Of a stretch of 35,818 nucleotides of DNA, positions 7,088-15,087 are shown piece after piece. Location: positions 1 through 35,818 of IMG/VR virus record IMGVR_UViG_3300042433_000051, one strand, 5' to 3'. A program made the translations under genes and the position numbers. A model generated the notes under the pieces. The model did not search any database. It had not been told where the DNA came from and saw nothing but the letters and a program-made list of their open reading frames with translations. Source of the DNA: a virus. Numbering within the stretch: the stretch's first letter is position 1; every line of letters starts with the position of its first letter.

Positions 7088-8950
7088 ATGGAAAAAGAAT
7101 TACCAATATACCGGTTGGATATAGTTGAAGATTTAGAATCTAATGTCGAAGTTGATTTTGTTGCTCTCGTAGATAGACCTGCGATTGAGAAATCATTTTT
7201 AGCTTTCCAAGATTCGTATTCCGATTATCCAGATTCCGTTAGTAACAACGCAAAGGCAGCTTTAAAATGGGCAGAAGAAAACGGATGGGGTTCTTGTGGT
7301 ACTCCTGTCGGTAAACAAAGAGCGAATCAATTAGCAAAAGGCGAAGCAATATCTTTTGAGACAATTAAAAGAATGTACTCTTTCCTTTCCAGACACAAAG
7401 AGAATGCTGAAAAATCAAAAGGTTACGGAGATGGTTGTGGGCAATTGATGTACGATGCGTGGGGTGGAGCGAGTGCTTTGAGTTGGGCAGAGGCTAAAAT
7501 AAACTCCATAGAAAAACAGAAGTTTGCCATTCAAGATGAAGAGGAAAGGATTATTTCCGGTGCTTTGATGTTAGCCGATACTCCTATTTACCGAAACGAT
7601 GCAAATGGCGAATATTATGTTGTATTTACTAAAGACACTATTAAAAAGATTGCTCAAAAATATTTTAAAAAAGGGTATCAAAACAATGTGAATTTGATGC
7701 ACGATTCTGGTCAAGTGATGGATGGAATCACAATGTTTGAAAGTTGGATAGTGGATGAAAACAGAGGCATTAAACCGATGAAAGGTTTTGAAGATGTAAA
7801 GGATGGTTCTTGGTTTGGTTCTTTTAAAGTTGAGAATGATGAAGTTTGGCAGATGATTAAGGATGGCAAAGTACAAGGATTTTCTGTTGAGGGAATATTT
7901 AATTACAAAACCAATCTTCCAGAGCCTACTAAAGAAGAAAAAATGATGCAAGACATTATTAATATTCTTGAGCAGGTTGATATGTTTTGGGAAGAAGAAG
8001 ATGTCGAAAGGGATGAAAGCGGAAGATTTGCACCAAAAGGCGGTGGTGGCGGGAAAGAAGATGAAGGTAAAATACCCCAAGTAAAAAAAAATGAAAACCC
8101 GGTAGATACAAAAGTCAATGTTGAAGTAGAAAGACCGGAGTGGTCAAGAAAAAATGATAAGTACGAATCTGCCGCAAAAGAAACAATAAATAAAATATTA
8201 GAAGATAATAATTGGAATTCCGGAACAGATAAATTTTATTCCGATAAATCTGGTAGAATTACTGAAGAGAGGTTAGATTTCCATAATAAACTTGCCGGAG
8301 ATTATATCGGTGGATCAAGAAGTAAAGATTATCAAGATACAGGAACGAGTTATTTTATGGGTGGGGCACCTGCAACGGGTAAGAGTTCTATTGAGAAAGG
8401 CGGTCTTGTTGAGTTCCCCAAAGGAATTTTAAAGGTAGATCCAGATGGCATTAAAGATGGATTCCCAGAATATAGGGAAATGCTTAATAGAAGAGAATTT
8501 TCGGCTGCTTCTCGCATACACGAAGAAAGTTCAAAAGTTTCAAAAGACATCGTAAAAACTGCCGCTAAAAACAAATGGGATATAGTGGTGGATGCGGTAG
8601 GCGATGGAACTTATCAGAGTGTCATAGATAAGGTTAAGCAACAAAGAGAATCCGGGAAAAGAGTTGTAGCTCATTATGTTACTACCGATACAGAAGTATC
8701 TGTAAAAAGAGCAGAAGAAAGAGCCAGAAAAACCGGTAGATATGTACCGGAAAAATACATCAGAGATATGCACCGAGAAATCTCGGTCTTGCTTCCAAAG
8801 TTCGCCAAAAATAATGTATTTGATGAATTGCATCTATACGATAACAATGGGAAAAAACCGAAGCTAATCTTCTCTCATACTAAAGGAAAATCAACTATTT
8901 ACGATAGAAAAGCCTACAATAAATTTTTAGCGAAAGCAAAAGAAAGTTAA
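7088..8950 (+). CDS. Prohead protease (XkdF-like) fused to zeta-toxin-like kinase
   Basis: This 620-residue protein has three parts. Residues 1-41 (VDFVALVDRPAIEKSFLAF) and about 143-285 match XkdF-type serine prohead proteases (Peptidase S78_2), with a likely catalytic His205 (LMHDSG) and Ser266 (GFSVEG). Between them, at about 48-140, is the small domain with GTPVGKQRANQLAKG and DGCGQLMYDAWGG often inserted in phage head proteins. After an RDESGRFAPKGGGGGK linker (about 307-323) comes a zeta-toxin-like P-loop domain. It has Walker A GGAPATGKS at 425-433 (Lys432), an Asp at 502 (VVDAVGD) and a C-terminal Arg/Lys-rich lid. Zeta kinases phosphorylate UDP-N-acetylsugars. The protease would mature the capsid; the kinase may be carried in the head or act on the host. 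No antitoxin is obvious. Confidence 0.85.
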   Translation: MEKELPIYRLDIVEDLESNVEVDFVALVDRPAIEKSFLAFQDSYSDYPDSVSNNAKAALKWAEENGWGSCGTPVGKQRANQLAKGEAISFETIKRMYSFLSRHKENAEKSKGYGDGCGQLMYDAWGGASALSWAEAKINSIEKQKFAIQDEEERIISGALMLADTPIYRNDANGEYYVVFTKDTIKKIAQKYFKKGYQNNVNLMHDSGQVMDGITMFESWIVDENRGIKPMKGFEDVKDGSWFGSFKVENDEVWQMIKDGKVQGFSVEGIFNYKTNLPEPTKEEKMMQDIINILEQVDMFWEEEDVERDESGRFAPKGGGGGKEDEGKIPQVKKNENPVDTKVNVEVERPEWSRKNDKYESAAKETINKILEDNNWNSGTDKFYSDKSGRITEERLDFHNKLAGDYIGGSRSKDYQDTGTSYFMGGAPATGKSSIEKGGLVEFPKGILKVDPDGIKDGFPEYREMLNRREFSAASRIHEESSKVSKDIVKTAAKNKWDIVVDAVGDGTYQSVIDKVKQQRESGKRVVAHYVTTDTEVSVKRAEERARKTGRYVPEKYIRDMHREISVLLPKFAKNNVFDELHLYDNNGKKPKLIFSHTKGKSTIYDRKAYNKFLAKAKES

Positions 8951-9120
8951 TTGCTTGGAATATAAGGGATGAAGCCTTTTTCTTTCATCTCTTGTAGTTC
9001 TTTGAGAAGTTTTTTCTCGTAATCATTGACAGGTTTTCTGCCATTGATTAATTCTTTGAGTTGCTGCTCTTTTTTGTCTGGAGCAGGGAAATGAGTGTCT
9101 ATTACTAATTCGTAATCCAT
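8947..9120 (-). CDS. Small hypothetical protein (57 aa), leftward cassette
   Basis: The frame runs from the ATG at 9120 to the TAA at 8947-8949. It encodes a highly charged helical protein (KKEQQLKELINGRKPVNDYE, ending GFIPYIPSN). Its stop codon overlaps the stop of the convergent protease-kinase gene, leaving no intergenic space. Composition and codon use look like real coding sequence. No family was recognised. Its position opposite the kinase end invites the thought of a partner or antitoxin, but nothing in the sequence demonstrates that. Confidence 0.7.
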   Translation of the reverse strand: MDYELVIDTHFPAPDKKEQQLKELINGRKPVNDYEKKLLKELQEMKEKGFIPYIPSN

Positions 9121-9142
9121 ATATGTAATTTAATAAATTTAT

Positions 9143-9316
9143 TTAATCGGACAAAATAATTTTGATCCATTCTTTGAATAATTCGTGAATGGATTTCCCA
9201 TACTTTAAATAGATTTTTTCTTTTTCTTGTATAGGAACCCGAAAGGAAATATAAGAAGAGGGGTTTTTCTTTTTCCTTCCGGAATTTGCTCTTTTCCCCC
9301 CCCAAGTTTTAGGCAT
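9143..9316 (-). CDS. Small basic protein with GGKRxxSGRKKK motif
   Basis: This 57-residue protein begins MPKTWGGKRANSGRKKK, a motif common at the N terminus of small phage DNA-associated proteins. A strand-helix segment follows (SYISFRVPIQEKEKIYLKYG) that resembles ribbon-helix-helix or antitoxin-like folds. I chose the ATG at 9316 because it overlaps the stop of the upstream gene in the usual ATGCCTAA coupling. An upstream ATG at 9406 would add 30 residues that lie wholly within the neighbouring gene. A DNA-binding role is plausible but unproven. Confidence 0.65.
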   Translation of the reverse strand: MPKTWGGKRANSGRKKKNPSSYISFRVPIQEKEKIYLKYGKSIHELFKEWIKIILSD

Positions 9317-9893
9317 ACCAACTTTCATAGATTCCTTTTTCTCCGGCGTTATATTCGCTAATCCAACCATGTTTTGATTTGATGTAGTATTTACTAACTT
9401 TTCCATTTTGATTTACCATAACTTGAATTGGTTTCCGCTCCGCAGGTTTTACAAAGGCATCTGGAACCGGAACCACAAAAGCACTCATTGAACTGTAACC
9501 GCTTGGTTGATTCTTTGCATATTTACTTGCGATTCTTTTTACTTCGATAGATTTTGGAAGCACCGCAGTAACTTGGTAGAAGTCAATATTAGTTTGTTCA
9601 TAACCCCAAGAATCGTAAAGAATTTGCCCAATCTTGAAAGAGTGGTTCATTTCTTCTTTGGCTTTTCTGATAGTTTCTTTTTTCTTTTCCTTCCAACTTT
9701 GAATCTCTAATTTCCGATTGATGAACTCATTTACATACTCTTCGATTCTTTCCAAAGAACGGAAGCGGTAATGAAATTCTGGTTTTGGAAACTTGGCTTT
9801 TGAGTTAAGTTTAGTGCAACAAGCAGTCAAAAGTTCCTCGTTAATAACGAGAGCGAAACCAAGGTTTTCGCATTTTTCAATCAAGTGTTTCAT
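9309..9893 (-). CDS. Conserved hypothetical protein with SWGYEQTNIDFYQV motif
   Basis: This 194-residue cytosolic protein has an N-terminal helical part and a Lys/Glu coiled stretch (about 60-85). A compact domain follows containing ILYDSWGYEQTNIDFYQV and then PKSIEVKRIASK. That motif is widespread in phage and plasmid proteins of unknown function. The C terminus (VSKYYIKSKHGWISEYN) is probably beta-rich. It is the largest gene of the leftward cassette and likely shares the promoter at 10330-10358. TTCACTCT lies in its 5' leader. No enzymatic residues were identified. Confidence 0.75.
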   Translation of the reverse strand: MKHLIEKCENLGFALVINEELLTACCTKLNSKAKFPKPEFHYRFRSLERIEEYVNEFINRKLEIQSWKEKKKETIRKAKEEMNHSFKIGQILYDSWGYEQTNIDFYQVTAVLPKSIEVKRIASKYAKNQPSGYSSMSAFVVPVPDAFVKPAERKPIQVMVNQNGKVSKYYIKSKHGWISEYNAGEKGIYESWYA

Positions 9894-9940
9894 AGTGTTT
9901 GTTTTTAATTACAGAGTGAAGATAGGGTTTATTTTGATAT

Positions 9941-10195
9941 TCACAAATTTTTTTCAAGGAAAAAACATAATAATTTTCTGTTTAATACCTCAAAGAAGTG
10001 TGCTTCGCTTTCAAAACAGTTAGTATGGCACTCAACTCCTTGATTACAAGCAAGTTCTGAATAATTCTCAAAATTTAAGAAATATCCATACTCGTTTGGT
10101 TTCCTTGTATATTCCGGAAACAGTCCTTGTAGGGCATAGGCATTATGACCAATAAAACCCAGATTAATGTACTTTTCGTTTTTTAGGTTTTCCAT
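9941..10195 (-). CDS. Hypothetical protein (84 aa), Cys-rich
   Basis: An 84-residue protein with several aromatic residues and four cysteines in the second half (CNQGVECHTNCFESEAHFF), which might bind metal. No family was recognised. It is the second gene after the leftward promoter, 12 bases downstream of the tiny membrane-protein gene. Its leader, like that of the 9893 gene, contains ACAAACACT near the ATG. Frame length and composition support a real gene. Confidence 0.6.
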   Translation of the reverse strand: MENLKNEKYINLGFIGHNAYALQGLFPEYTRKPNEYGYFLNFENYSELACNQGVECHTNCFESEAHFFEVLNRKLLCFFLEKNL

Positions 10196-10207
10196 AGTTT
10201 TTAAATT

Positions 10208-10306
10208 TTAGTGTTTGTAATATCTTTTGGCAAAATAGGCTCTATTTTCAAAGTGGAAAAACAGAGTGAAACCGAAGGCGATCAAGAGAACGAAAGGAAG
10301 TATCAT
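10208..10306 (-). CDS. Tiny membrane protein (32 aa)
   Basis: The ATG at 10306 opens a frame for a 32-residue protein. It has one hydrophobic segment at about residues 2-18 (ILPFVLLIAFGFTLFF) followed by a basic tail (YFAKRYYKH). It is the first gene after a good Bacteroidetes-type promoter. Similar tiny membrane proteins occur at 29750-29875 and 30282-30365. The role is unknown. Confidence 0.55.
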   Translation of the reverse strand: MILPFVLLIAFGFTLFFHFENRAYFAKRYYKH

Positions 10307-10329
10307 AGTTTGTCGTTTTGATTACAGAA

Positions 10330-10358
10330 CAAATATACAACCCTAATTTGAAAAACAA
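10330..10358 (-). promoter_or_regulatory. Bacteroidetes-type promoter for the leftward cassette
   Basis: On the minus strand TTG (10358-10356), an 18-base spacer and TATATTTG (10337-10330) match the Flavobacterium consensus TTG-N17-23-TAnnTTTG. Transcription would start near 10323, just ahead of the tiny membrane-protein gene. Confidence 0.75.
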
Positions 10359-10405
10359 AATTTTTTTCCAAGTTTTTTTTAATTTTTTTTGGCTAATTTT
10401 TTTAG

Positions 10406-10413
10406 TATATTTG
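10406..10413 (+). promoter_or_regulatory. Rightward -7 element of the scaffold/capsid transcript
   Basis: TATATTTG matches TAnnTTTG. It follows long T tracts (10361-10403). No TTG lies at the optimal distance; the nearest is 14 bases upstream. It points at the leader of the scaffold gene and is divergent from the promoter at 10330-10358. Confidence 0.55.
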
Positions 10414-10438
10414 CTCGGTTTTCATAGTTTTGTTTGAA

Positions 10439-10470
10439 GGGGGGTGTTTCCACACTCCCCTTTTTCTATT
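10439..10470 (+). terminator. Terminator-like hairpin in the capsid-operon leader
   Basis: GGGGGTGT pairs with ACACTCCCC (one G-T wobble) around a small loop, followed directly by TTTTT. It lies about 20 bases after the expected start of the transcript from the -7 element at 10406 and before the scaffold gene. It would therefore act as an attenuator or, if that promoter is silent, as an insulator. Confidence 0.6.
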
Positions 10471-10492
10471 TGGTCACATAGATAAGTGTTTA

Positions 10493-10499
10493 CTATTTA
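10493..10499 (+). promoter_or_regulatory. CTATTTA element upstream of the scaffold gene
   Basis: CTATTTA ends 14 bases before the chosen ATG at 10514. The last A of the motif is also the first base of an alternative ATG at 10499. Confidence 0.35.
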
Positions 10500-10513
10500 T
10501 GGGTAAATTCTTT

Positions 10514-11098
10514 ATGTCTCCACAAGAAGCATTATTAAAAATCAAGGCGATGTTCGCTGAAGCTACTATCGAGCCATCGGTAGATGCTCCCGAAGTCGCT
10601 GTTGCCAATTTCGCTGAATATGTTTTAGCGAGTGGCGTTAAAGTTATGGTTGATAAACTTGAGGTTGGCGGTAAGGTTACTCTTTTAGATGAAGCCGGAA
10701 ACGAAGTTCCTGCTCCTGCCGGAGAGCATACTCTTGCTGATGGATCTGTTATCGTTTTAGATGAAACAGGCACAATCCTTGAAATCAAAGTTCCAGAAGT
10801 TGAAGTAGAAGTTGAAGCACCTGAATCTGAAGTTGAATTAATGAAGAAGAAGGTTGCTGAAATGGAAGCACAACTTGAGGCTTTAAAAGGTTACAAGAAA
10901 GAAGCTGAAGTTAAAATGAGCGAGAATATTGCTCAAATGAACGATAAGTTCTCAAAAGCTATTTCTGAACTTACAGATGTAGTTATCGAACTTACTAAAA
11001 CTCCTTCAGTTGCTCCTACTCAACCTAAACAATTCACAAAGCATTTCGAATCTAAAAACGATAAAATCTCTCGTTTTCTTTCTAATTACGCAAAATAA
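10514..11098 (+). CDS. Capsid scaffold-like protein
   Basis: An acidic 194-residue protein just upstream of the major capsid gene. It contains the segment EHTLADGSVIVLDETGTI, a phrase I associate with scaffold or protease-scaffold proteins of Bacteroidetes phages. A coiled coil follows at about 115-160 (VELMKKKVAEMEAQLEAL), and the tail is basic (SKNDKISRFLSNYAK), as scaffold C termini that bind coat protein often are. I chose the ATG at 10514 (MSPQEALLKI). The ATG at 10499 would add MGKFF, and a start at 10430 would translate the hairpin. The likely substrate of the protease at 7088. Confidence 0.75.
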   Translation: MSPQEALLKIKAMFAEATIEPSVDAPEVAVANFAEYVLASGVKVMVDKLEVGGKVTLLDEAGNEVPAPAGEHTLADGSVIVLDETGTILEIKVPEVEVEVEAPESEVELMKKKVAEMEAQLEALKGYKKEAEVKMSENIAQMNDKFSKAISELTDVVIELTKTPSVAPTQPKQFTKHFESKNDKISRFLSNYAK

Positions 11099-11126: not shown

Positions 11127-12068
11127 ATGGCTTTTGATGTTTCAGCATTAGCAAATTATACCAAAGAGAATGAAGCTCTATTGGTAACTTCTTCCGTACT
11201 AGGAAGTAAAACCGCTTCTTTGATTAAATCTCAAGGAAATGTAATGGTAGGTGTAAAATCTGCCGAGACTATCAACATTATGGACACTGACGCTATCTTC
11301 CAAGCAGGTGGCTCTTGCGGTTTCAACGCAAGTGGTTCAACTACTTTCACGCAGCGTACTGTAACTGTTGGTAAGATTAAAGTAAACGAATCTCTTTGCC
11401 CTAAAGACCTTGAAGCAAAATATTTGCAGAAGGCTTTACCAGAGGGAAGCCGCTACGATTCAATCGCTTTCGCTTCTGACTATACAGACAAGAAAGCTGC
11501 TCGTATTGCTGCTCAACTTGAAACTGCTATCTGGCAAGGTTCAACAGGAAGTGCGAATGTAAACCTAAACAAATTCCAAGGTTTGGTTACTTTGGTTGGT
11601 ACTTCTGCGGTAGAAGCTAACAACGCTACTTATTACGGTGGTACTGCAACTGCAATCACTACTGCGAATGTAGTTGCTATCTTCGATGCTCTTTACAAAG
11701 CAATCCCTGCAACTGTTGTAGCAAAAGATGATATGACTATCTGGTGTGGTCAAGACGTATTCCGTACTTATACAATCGCATTGAAGAACGCTAATATGTT
11801 CAACTATGCTTTCGATGGTAAGGCTGATAGCGAGTTCTTCTTACCCGGTACTCCGATTAAAGTTGTAGCAACTCCCGGTTTGAACGGTGTAAATAAGATT
11901 TATGCTATCCGTTTGAGCAATATGTTCTTGGGAACTGACCTTCTTAATGAAGAAGAGCGTTTCGAACTTTTCTATGCTAAAGAGGCTGATCAAGTTCGTT
12001 TCGTAAGCGAGTTCAAGATGGGCGTGAATGTTGCCTTCTTGGATGAGATCGCTTCTTTCATTATCTAA
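11127..12068 (+). CDS. Major capsid protein (HK97-fold)
   Basis: The 313-residue protein is the expected shell protein. It lies 28 bases downstream of the scaffold gene and is followed by a strong hairpin. Its codons are the most regular in the window. It starts MAFDVSALANYTKENEALL and has a beta-rich middle and a segment KKAARIAAQLETAIW like the spine helix of HK97-type coats. The end is FVSEFKMGVNVAFLDEIASF. There is no N-terminal delta domain, consistent with a separate scaffold. The start is preceded by an A/T-rich leader typical of Bacteroidetes genes. Confidence 0.88.
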   Translation: MAFDVSALANYTKENEALLVTSSVLGSKTASLIKSQGNVMVGVKSAETINIMDTDAIFQAGGSCGFNASGSTTFTQRTVTVGKIKVNESLCPKDLEAKYLQKALPEGSRYDSIAFASDYTDKKAARIAAQLETAIWQGSTGSANVNLNKFQGLVTLVGTSAVEANNATYYGGTATAITTANVVAIFDALYKAIPATVVAKDDMTIWCGQDVFRTYTIALKNANMFNYAFDGKADSEFFLPGTPIKVVATPGLNGVNKIYAIRLSNMFLGTDLLNEEERFELFYAKEADQVRFVSEFKMGVNVAFLDEIASFII

Positions 12069-12736: not shown

Positions 12737-13114
12737 ATGATATATTTAACGAAGGGTGCAACAAGTCAAATTATCCTTACTTTAAAGGAGAAACAGACAC
12801 TTTCAGCACCGAATTATTTATTCGTTTTTACGCATAGGGGCAGTAATATAGAGGTTAAATTTGTTATCCTAAACGCTGCCGATACTTCTGCTTTTAAAGA
12901 TAGGTTTAATCAATTCTCAATCGTTACAAATACTTATTTCGGTACTCAAGATTCTGGAGAGTGGGAATATCAAATCTACGAACAAACTTCTACCACGAAT
13001 ACGAACCCTGCCAATGCTACCGGATTAGTAGAAACAGGGATAATGAGGCTTTCGGAATCTACTTCTTTTACATATACGAAACACCAACCAAATAACACAT
13101 TTATAGTACGATGA
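12737..13114 (+). CDS. Hypothetical virion-associated protein (125 aa)
   Basis: A 125-residue protein, beta-rich by composition (many Thr, Phe, Val and Ile). It starts MIYLTKGATSQIILTLKEKQ and contains SGEWEYQIYEQTSTTN, features of small beta-sandwich proteins found in phage structural operons. It is the first gene after the terminator at 12673 and overlaps the portal gene by 4 bases (ATGA). No named family was recognised. An accessory head or neck component is an inference from position. Confidence 0.6.
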   Translation: MIYLTKGATSQIILTLKEKQTLSAPNYLFVFTHRGSNIEVKFVILNAADTSAFKDRFNQFSIVTNTYFGTQDSGEWEYQIYEQTSTTNTNPANATGLVETGIMRLSESTSFTYTKHQPNNTFIVR

Positions 13115-15087
13115 TGGATAATTTAGTTATATTAACATTTGCGGAAGCAAAGCAACCCGAATACAAAGAAAAAAAGGGTGTAGGATATATCGAGTTTGGA
13201 GACAAAAACGATTACCCTAATTATTTATTAAGCCTTTACAATAAAAGTGCGAAACATAACGCTATTGTAAAAGGTAAGGTAAACTACATTACAGGAAATG
13301 GATGGGCAGCAAAAGAAGATGATGTAAAAGCCGAAGAGTTTATTAATAAGGCTAATCCTTATGAATCTTTGACTGATGTTAGTCGTAAAGTTTCTATTGA
13401 TATAGAGGTTTTCGGTGGTGCTTATTTAGAGATAGTTTGGAGTAAAATTGGTGGTCAAATTGCTTCTATTAGTCATATTGACTATACAAAAGTTCGTTCT
13501 AATAAAGACAATACTCAATATTGGATTAAAGATTGGAATGATAGAAAAGCCGAGGCAGAAGTTGTTTTAGGATATAATAAAGATTTAAGAGAGGGTAAGC
13601 AGATTCTTTACATTAAAGAATACAGACCGGGTTTAGATACTTACGCTTTACCGGGTTACATAGGTGCGTTAAATTATATTGAAAGTGATGTTGAGGTTTC
13701 CAAGCACGTCTTGGGTAATGCACAAACAGGGTTTTCTGCAAGTAAACTTATTACTTTACCTAACGGAGAACCAACACCGGATGAAAAGAGAAATATTGAA
13801 AGAAGATTTACCGAAAGATTTAGCGGTTCAGATGGTAAGAAATTTATTCTTTCTTTCGTTCAAGATATCGCAAAGAAACCTGCGGTTGATGATTTAGGGG
13901 CGAGTGATTTAACTAAAGAAGATTTCGGAAGAGTAGATACAATGATTCAGCAGAATATATTTGCAGGACATCAGATAACTACACCTTCTTTATTTGGTAT
14001 TTTGGTTGAAGGTTCTTTGGGTACTCGTTCCGAGATTAGAGATGGTTACGAGGTTTTCAAGAATACTTATGTAAACGATAAGCAACAATATTTAGAGGGT
14101 ATTTTTAATTCCTTGGCTGAAATTAACGGAGTAACTACTGAACTTTATATTAAGCCGGTAGAACCGATAAACTTTGAATTTAGCGAAAGCGTTATTTCTC
14201 AATTTGCTCCGAAAGAGTGGATTCTTGAAAAGATTGGTGTTGATATGACCAAATACCAAACACCTGTTGAACCTACTCAACAAGGGTTAATCAATGAGCA
14301 TTTAAAGGGGATGAAAGGTAGAGAATGGCAGAATTTCCAACGGATCATTCGTGAATACAATAAAGGAAAGATTAGTCGGAATCAAGCCATTCAAATGTTA
14401 AAGAGTGGTTACGGATTAGATGATGAAGCAATTAACACTTGGTTAGGAGATGAAACCTACGAGCAAAGATTTGATGATATTGATTCCACGATAGAGTTAT
14501 TTAGTCAATTTGGCGAAGCGGAAGAAGGTTTTAATGTAGTGGCTCGTAAAAAGGTGTTTGTAGGCGATTTAGAGGCTCAAGAATTAGCTTTTAGAGATGA
14601 GGTGTTAGATGATACTATCGACAAGAAAATCCTTGATACAATCGCTAAAAACAAGCGTATTCCACCTTTTGATATTGCCAAGGCTTTAGATATCGAAGAG
14701 GATGAAGTAAGAAGCAGGATCAATAAAATGGTGGCTTTGGAGATTCTTGAGTACGATGTAGATACTCAAATCAGTAAGTTATTAAAGCCTTTAAATGAGA
14801 TTTTAGATAAGCCTTTAAAGACAAGTTTTTTGGTTCGTTATGAGTATTCTTGGGATTATTTAAGAACTACCTCAAAGGATAGGAATATGAATACTTCCAG
14901 ACCTTTTTGCCAAAGATTAATGAGTTTGAAAAAACTTTATACAAGAGGCGAAATCGAACAAATTAGTGCAAGGTTAGGATATGATGTGTTTGCTCGTGCC
15001 GGTGGTTGGTGGACTTTACCCGATACGAACATTCACTCTCCTAAATGCAGACACACTTGGAACGCAGTTGTAGTTGTTAAAAAATAA
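13111..15087 (+). CDS. Portal protein with winged-helix-like insert and C-terminal MuF-like domain
   Basis: The 658-residue protein forms the DNA entry ring at one capsid vertex. Residues 1-400 look like a portal: KHNAIVKGKVNYITGNGW, DIEVFGGAYLEIVW, and LFGILVEGSLGTRSEIRDGY near the wing/stem. Residues about 503-550 (LDTIAKNKRIPPFDIAKALD, then EEDEVRSRINKMVALEILE) look like a small winged helix-turn-helix. The last 88 residues, with SRPFCQRLMSLKKLYTRGEI and SPKCRHTWNAV (Cys646), match the MuF-type minor head module. Three normally separate functions are thus in one chain. The start uses the ATGA overlap with the previous gene. Confidence 0.85.
   Translation: MMDNLVILTFAEAKQPEYKEKKGVGYIEFGDKNDYPNYLLSLYNKSAKHNAIVKGKVNYITGNGWAAKEDDVKAEEFINKANPYESLTDVSRKVSIDIEVFGGAYLEIVWSKIGGQIASISHIDYTKVRSNKDNTQYWIKDWNDRKAEAEVVLGYNKDLREGKQILYIKEYRPGLDTYALPGYIGALNYIESDVEVSKHVLGNAQTGFSASKLITLPNGEPTPDEKRNIERRFTERFSGSDGKKFILSFVQDIAKKPAVDDLGASDLTKEDFGRVDTMIQQNIFAGHQITTPSLFGILVEGSLGTRSEIRDGYEVFKNTYVNDKQQYLEGIFNSLAEINGVTTELYIKPVEPINFEFSESVISQFAPKEWILEKIGVDMTKYQTPVEPTQQGLINEHLKGMKGREWQNFQRIIREYNKGKISRNQAIQMLKSGYGLDDEAINTWLGDETYEQRFDDIDSTIELFSQFGEAEEGFNVVARKKVFVGDLEAQELAFRDEVLDDTIDKKILDTIAKNKRIPPFDIAKALDIEEDEVRSRINKMVALEILEYDVDTQISKLLKPLNEILDKPLKTSFLVRYEYSWDYLRTTSKDRNMNTSRPFCQRLMSLKKLYTRGEIEQISARLGYDVFARAGGWWTLPDTNIHSPKCRHTWNAVVVVKK

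Follow-up and report, generated by a model that had tools for sequence, protein, structure and literature searches.

A swappable cargo site on an XkdF-type prohead protease as a possible second route for toxins into phage heads

The closest described counterparts of the locus considered here are the polymorphic toxins carried by the MuF head protein, such as Apk2/IapK/Aph1 and Bxa, for which passages of three papers (PMC5576092, PMC12226406, PMC11699363) describe a head-gene carrier, a variable C-terminal toxin and adjacent cargo-specific immunity genes. According to these passages, MuF toxins occur exclusively in temperate phages (PMC5576092), examples of such sets come from Bacteroidales (PMC11699363), and the MuF toxin Apk2, which contains a (p)ppApp synthetase domain, has two partners encoded after it, IapK blocking the active site and Aph1 hydrolysing the product (PMC12226406). 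Fusions of MuF to a zeta domain have also been published (PMC5512222, section 25), in a passage that names MuF and conjugative-element proteins as carriers and no prohead protease. In this study, the 35,818 nucleotides at positions 1 to 35,818 of the IMG/VR virus record IMGVR_UViG_3300042433_000051 (hereafter, the window) were analysed, in which a single reading frame joins an XkdF-type prohead protease to a zeta-type kinase. Like the MuF-zeta fusions (cyanophage PSS2 provides one) and polyvalent proteins, the frame attaches a zeta-toxin-like kinase to a phage head protein, but here the cargo is exchanged with a Tas1-like RelA/SpoT synthetase (RSH) domain and is paired with a gene for a protein of 57 amino acids (aa). 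The fused gene of the window is probably the zeta allele of a toxin/immunity system that is polymorphic and is carried by the maturation protease. No prohead protease fused to a zeta or an RSH domain appeared in the titles or abstract beginnings of the open-access PubMed Central matches listed.

A preliminary description of the window, made from its letters alone, had reported the one-frame fusion, with His205 and Ser266 in the protease, a Walker A motif at residues 425-433 (Lys432) in the kinase and a flexible Gly-rich linker between them, and on all these points it proved correct. In the 620-aa protein, Pfam found Peptidase_S78_2 (XkdF) at residues 144-270 (E 2.6e-17) and Zeta_toxin at residues 418-589 (E 1.3e-27), and each of the two matches passed its curated cut-off. 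His205 and Ser266 do not vary across 13 aligned proteins, and Lys432 is kept in four aligned zeta domains, two of which are near-identical. The protein thus has the family match and the conserved His and Ser of XkdF prohead proteases, as well as their location ahead of scaffold-like and capsid genes; it differs from them by an additional 320-aa C-terminal linker and kinase.

In a structure model of the fusion built from 26 sequences, the kinase region (residues 351-620) reached block-mean predicted local distance difference test (pLDDT) values of 64-95, while the linker (293-344) remained below 50 and is predicted to be disordered. Foldseek matches for the kinase model were re-examined with VIA-align, and residues 376-620 were found to be closest to the AvrRxo1 kinase (Z 19.5), zeta (Z 18.7) and PezT (Z 17.8), the first two being tied as top matches and polynucleotide kinases scoring lower (Z 13.5). 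The modelled kinase fold is of the zeta type, and the fold, the Walker A motif and the Pfam family are common to this domain and to the toxins of the epsilon-zeta and PezAT systems. A chance P-loop is ruled out by the Pfam and fold matches. The preliminary suggestion of a cell-wall-sugar kinase did not hold up as well, because the AvrRxo1 kinase and zeta fit the predicted fold equally and several positions that we take to contact UDP-N-acetylglucosamine differ in the zeta-domain alignment; such a fold match alone would not decide the substrate.

It should be noted that the fusion is rare among close relatives. When viral contigs were scanned with the window protease (best 80 of 380 relatives; 81 loci measured, including the window), the protease stood alone, ending at 294-297 aa, in 77 loci; a zeta tail was present in three, i.e. 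the window and the loci designated L002 and L003, and L016 was truncated by the contig end. This distribution is what an assembly or annotation artefact joining two genes could produce, a danger already pointed out in the preliminary description. However, L002 is 97% identical to the window across the whole protein and L003 matches residues 294-620 at 99.7% (its protease part lies off the contig), each coming from a separate IMG/VR dataset. In addition, 12 more distant fused XkdF-zeta loci were found, 11 of which could be aligned, with an overall identity of 55-58%. The contigs with a fused XkdF-zeta frame number 14, the window counted. Because the same join recurs in these datasets and divergent loci, assembly error is ruled out; moreover, the frames are intact and the ratio of non-synonymous to synonymous substitution rates (dN/dS) is well under 1, and the chance that the join is an artefact is negligible.

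The relatives also define the insertion point. In 76 of the 79 loci measured for this purpose (the exceptions being L002, L003 and L007), the protease stop lies 16-89 base pairs (bp) ahead of the first aligned base of the scaffold-like gene, a label inferred from gene position and composition. Compared with L012, the window contains about 2450 bases (7969-10417) where L012 has about 19, with 91% identity before this stretch and 97% after it. The insertion is therefore placed exactly between the protease and the scaffold-like gene of the relatives, and consists of the linker and kinase, in the protease frame, followed by minus-strand frames of 57, 87, 194 and 84 aa. At the same junction, L007 (4886-5494) contains minus-strand frames that were named by eye as GIY-YIG-like.

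A wider view of the site was obtained from L093, which belongs to a sister clade. Its protease lacks the N-terminal domain of about 100 aa found in the window protein and has a linker of the GGPGSGR type at its end. When the first 195 residues of this protease were used for a scan, the best 80 of at least 598 relatives were taken and one was dropped because its 5' end is open; of the other 79, 11 have a zeta tail, 21 a second tail of about 246 aa, one a third tail and 46 none. The second tail follows the same linker as zeta and matches Tas1, a type VI (p)ppApp synthetase (E 3e-29); the Pfam model RelA_SpoT was under the cut-off in three of the four RSH-tail proteins scanned and absent in the fourth, L182. 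Unlike Tas1-type synthetases, this domain is carried by a phage protease and not by type VI secretion or a MuF protein. A scan with the linker region (best 80 of 120 loci; 77 analysed, many on contigs that overlap the earlier scans) returned 29 RSH, 20 zeta and five third-type cargoes and 23 loci without any. The third tail comprises about 110 aa and is attached through a linker of this kind in five contigs (L237/L386, L387 and L383-L385); in L237 the scaffold-like gene begins 40 bp downstream. The median distance from the protease stop to the capsid gene is 682 bp without cargo (151 loci), 1978 bp with zeta (13 loci) and 2229 bp with RSH (17 loci).

The exchange itself is visible in two genomes. 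L184 (RSH) and L178 (zeta) are 98.3% identical over 4652 bp, up to gene base +651, just past the linker, and alignment resumes at 97.9% over 2573 bp; the non-aligning middle (about 1354 and 1010 bp, respectively) is a clean RSH-for-zeta swap. The cargo-free L236 matches either of them at 92-93% identity as far as base +525. A protease tree was built by quick search from 516 columns, and 17 of its 65 inner branches are starred. On it, the cargo label changes 20 times against a mean of 29.4 after shuffling, while the zeta label alone changes 10 times for 11 rows, about as often as when shuffled (217 of 500 shuffles as low); one short-branched clade of 10 rows (SH-like approximate likelihood-ratio test 99) includes two zeta, five RSH and three empty rows. 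The L184/L178 swap stands independently of this tree. Polymorphic toxins have a constant N-terminal trafficking part and variable C-terminal toxin domains, and their C-terminal cassettes recombine; here, one protease and linker carry three tail types, exchange is seen in L184/L178 and in the label changes on the tree, and the protease would traffic the cargo. At the level of sequence, we see a swappable site at which zeta and RSH are exchanged as cassettes together with their neighbour genes; the fusion is one allele of this site, which the window alone could not have revealed.

After merging ten duplicates by contig name, 207 loci with an XkdF core were available, 16 with zeta (14 fused, and L090 and L091 with a separate overlapping gene), 21 with RSH and 170 with neither; because they were drawn from several queries, some of them containing zeta, these fractions should not be read as a census. 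All 16 XkdF-zeta loci have the 57-aa gene, against none of the other 191, and L003 and L084 provide further zeta/57-aa pairs with the protease beyond the contig. Likewise, two genes, one for 72 aa on the plus strand and one for 174-180 aa on the minus strand, accompany RSH in 20 of 21 loci and are found in none of the other 186, the sole exception being L172, whose contig ends inside the frame; a separate RSH scan (32 loci, 31 examined) agrees with this co-occurrence. The gene for about 194 aa occurs in both cassettes. The dN/dS is 0.05-0.25 for the zeta domain (nine chosen pairs), 0.04-0.25 for RSH (seven pairs) and 0.07-0.21 for the 57-aa gene (four of five pairs, one being saturated); the cargo and the 57-aa gene are under purifying selection. 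For both cargoes, co-occurrence with the neighbours is strict, and these neighbours are candidate immunity genes.

The RSH cassette resembles the Apk2/IapK/Aph1 set as described in the passages cited above, i.e. a toxin, a small protein and a hydrolase, here found on a different kind of carrier. Alarmone hydrolases are matched by the 174-180-aa protein, at a best E of 9e-6; the profile of the 72-aa protein, compared with solved structures, did not match an IapK structure. In L330 and L331, RSH is found on a 541-aa non-XkdF protein, which we suspect to be MuF, with a homologue of the 72-aa protein nearby; the next frame in L330 encodes a 143-aa protein, hydrolase-like by eye, with which the hydrolase BLAST query gave no match.

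By the logic of the RSH cassette, the 57-aa protein would be the best candidate for zeta immunity. Its model consists of two helices (mean pLDDT 74) followed by a conserved C-terminal PYIPSN tail, and no relative was found in the examined DNA around 74 other zeta loci. An epsilon-like identity was considered but found no support: compared with solved structures, the 57-aa profile retrieved no epsilon chain. Its matches were confined to repeat and designed-repeat chains, in which not one individual stretch passed, and were taken as an artefact, and Pfam gave nothing above a cut-off. The earlier remark that no epsilon-like antitoxin was recognised is therefore correct for epsilon itself, but not if taken to mean that a partner is missing, since a candidate accompanies every zeta cargo at the site. 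In this respect, the cassette differs from epsilon-zeta and PezAT, as no epsilon- or PezA-like partner was found, a two-helix candidate taking its place, and the kinase is fused to a protease.

The same co-occurrence bears on the possibility that the kinase is a phage helper enzyme, e.g. a nucleotide, NAD or polynucleotide kinase, with no toxin involved and the 57-aa gene as an unrelated neighbour. The equal nearness of the fold to the AvrRxo1 kinase, its lower-scoring match to polynucleotide kinases (Z 13.5) and a substrate that the fold leaves undecided would agree with this. However, a helper enzyme would not be expected to be exchanged at one site with a Tas1-type RSH domain, nor its unrelated neighbour to follow it in every XkdF locus, and we consider this explanation improbable.

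Related zeta domains are carried by other head proteins as well. A scan with a four-sequence zeta alignment gave the best 80 of 88 loci, and 20 chosen proteins were scanned by Pfam: eight contain MuF, two a portal domain and one XkdF (L093). The 'minor head protein' of cyanophage PSS2 is such a MuF-zeta protein. The portal proteins with a C-terminal zeta domain are encoded at L095:3057-5711 and L100:2784-5723; L098, L105 and L106 encode MuF proteins with two zeta stretches, and L133 a MuF protein with zeta and a weak ADP-ribosyltransferase match.

These carriers are relevant to another explanation, namely that the cassette is a toxin/immunity moron acting in the producing cell (as a lysis aid, or in growth arrest or phage exclusion), the join borrowing late expression and the effector staying unpackaged. 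Such a moron could well have its own minus-strand genes, be dispensable, as most XkdF loci are without cargo, and occur unfused but adjacent to the protease, as the kinase gene does in L090 and L091. It would account less well for the 14 zeta and 21 RSH loci in which the cargo is joined to the protease in frame through a conserved linker, and for the related domains of MuF and portal proteins, since what these carriers have in common is the head interior and not expression time alone. We therefore regard the moron explanation as rather unlikely.

The features of the window are collected in Table 1. The promoter-like site is the sole exact match in the window to what we take to be the Bacteroidetes promoter consensus; since 2.1 matches are expected by chance, only its location is suggestive, and a sigma-70 scan of the sequence found fewer sites than in shuffled sequences. 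A terminator-like hairpin lies at 10436-10463, between the cassette and the scaffold-like gene, and the DNA from 10418 onward is common to the window and cargo-free relatives. PADLOC returned nothing for the fusion and the four cassette proteins. In the window and L090 clades, the phrog_2859 domain is N-terminal to the protease core; the L093 clade does not have it, and in L285, L289 and L294 it is C-terminal. Matches to this domain are found in head proteins from archaeal, Vibrio and Roseobacter viruses. The C-terminal part of the window portal protein (13111-15087) matches the helix-turn-helix model HTH_24 at residues 501-545. L152 encodes a zeta-bearing protein of 1094 aa in which no XkdF core was detected, and a relative of the 194-aa cassette gene lies on the same stretch.

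Table 1. Features of the fused gene, its cassette and the adjoining head genes in the window.
Feature	Position	Strand	Remarks
XkdF prohead protease, linker and zeta-fold kinase, single 620-aa frame	7088..8950	+	
N-terminal domain of about 100 aa, residues 43-143	7214..7516	+	phrog_2859 match; pLDDT mostly 74-93
XkdF protease core, residues 144-270, with His205 and Ser266	7517..7897	+	Proteolysis predicted from sequence
Gly-rich linker, residues 293-344	7964..8119	+	Predicted disorder
Zeta-fold kinase, residues 371-620, Walker A 425-433	8198..8947	+	Pfam, alignment, fold match, dN/dS
57-aa gene, convergent, candidate zeta immunity	8947..9120	-	Stop overlaps kinase stop
87-aa basic protein	9143..9406	-	Overlaps next frame, start uncertain; related sequence in L002, L003, L084
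194-aa protein, common to zeta and RSH cassettes	9309..9893	-	phrog_37844
84-aa cassette protein	9941..10195	-	
Bacteroidetes-type promoter-like site, upstream of minus-strand block	10330..10359	-	
Scaffold-like gene	10430..11098 (start perhaps 10499)	+	Directly after protease in cargo-free relatives
Probable major capsid protein	11127..12068	+	phrog_11320 and weak phrog_1623 'virion structural protein' match

The host of this group of small phages is probably a member of the Bacteroidetes. The sole hints are L168, the single related locus found in a scan of genome contigs, which lies on a contig of a Bacteroidetes metagenome-assembled genome, and Nonlabens phage proteases that are 40% identical to the window protease. 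Integrase models (PF00589, PF00239) and the MuF model (PF04233) found no match in 15 records of 33-36 kb, the window included, although these records may be incomplete; control matches were obtained in 14, 10 and 4 of 14 genomes, respectively. Given this possible incompleteness, it is only likely that the phages are lytic and without MuF. Pfam also finds no MuF in the window fusion, in agreement with the initial proposal that the fusion is distinct from MuF carriers, and a maturation protease as carrier sets the system apart from the MuF toxins.

Prohead proteases act inside the prohead. If the window carries an allele of a protease-borne toxin/immunity system, the fusion would be made late and its protease part would bring it into the prohead; the effector would be retained in the maturing head, or be cleaved free within it, and would enter the next cell alongside the DNA to act there on a small molecule or small-molecule pool. 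The producer cell would be protected by the paired genes, i.e. the 57-aa protein for zeta, and the 72-aa protein and alarmone hydrolase for RSH. Head loading, toxicity, immunity and the kinase substrate are what we infer in this scheme.

Several observations weigh against it. Not every prohead protease is retained in the mature head; the separate kinase gene of L090 and L091 means that fusion is not obligatory; most XkdF loci have neither cargo; and nine of the 20 zeta proteins scanned are without a recognised head domain. In addition, the protease core (143-281) is mostly modelled with pLDDT below 50 and hence not confidently, the 57-aa protein has no likeness to any known antitoxin in the profile and Pfam comparisons, and the third tail has no such neighbour set in L237, the one locus read. 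Nevertheless, the proposal of the preliminary description that the protease serves as a toxin vehicle is supported, and is strengthened by the RSH cargo on the same protease and linker and by the neighbours that follow each cargo. Its observation is confirmed. Its interpretation is supported in part and needs to be broadened, so as to take in a protease-borne site for polymorphic toxin/immunity cassettes.

In a more far-reaching version, lytic, MuF-less phages would use the protease as a modular platform dedicated to loading toxins: alternative toxins would be brought into the prohead, freed by a cut in the linker as the head matures and injected by virions, with convergent genes protecting the producer; we put it forward tentatively, as a possibility somewhat short of even. 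If true, at least three interchangeable head vehicles (MuF, portal and protease) would serve one pool of toxin/immunity cassettes.

The results point to a second route by which phages may bring toxins into their heads. A second head carrier, found without detectable MuF or integrase, would make the logic of head-borne toxins general, in that any protein entering the prohead could have a toxin attached, and not bound to lysogeny. The 57-aa protein is a new candidate antagonist of a zeta-type kinase, and the presence of empty, zeta and RSH alleles on closely similar genomes makes the role of head-borne toxins for the phage directly testable.
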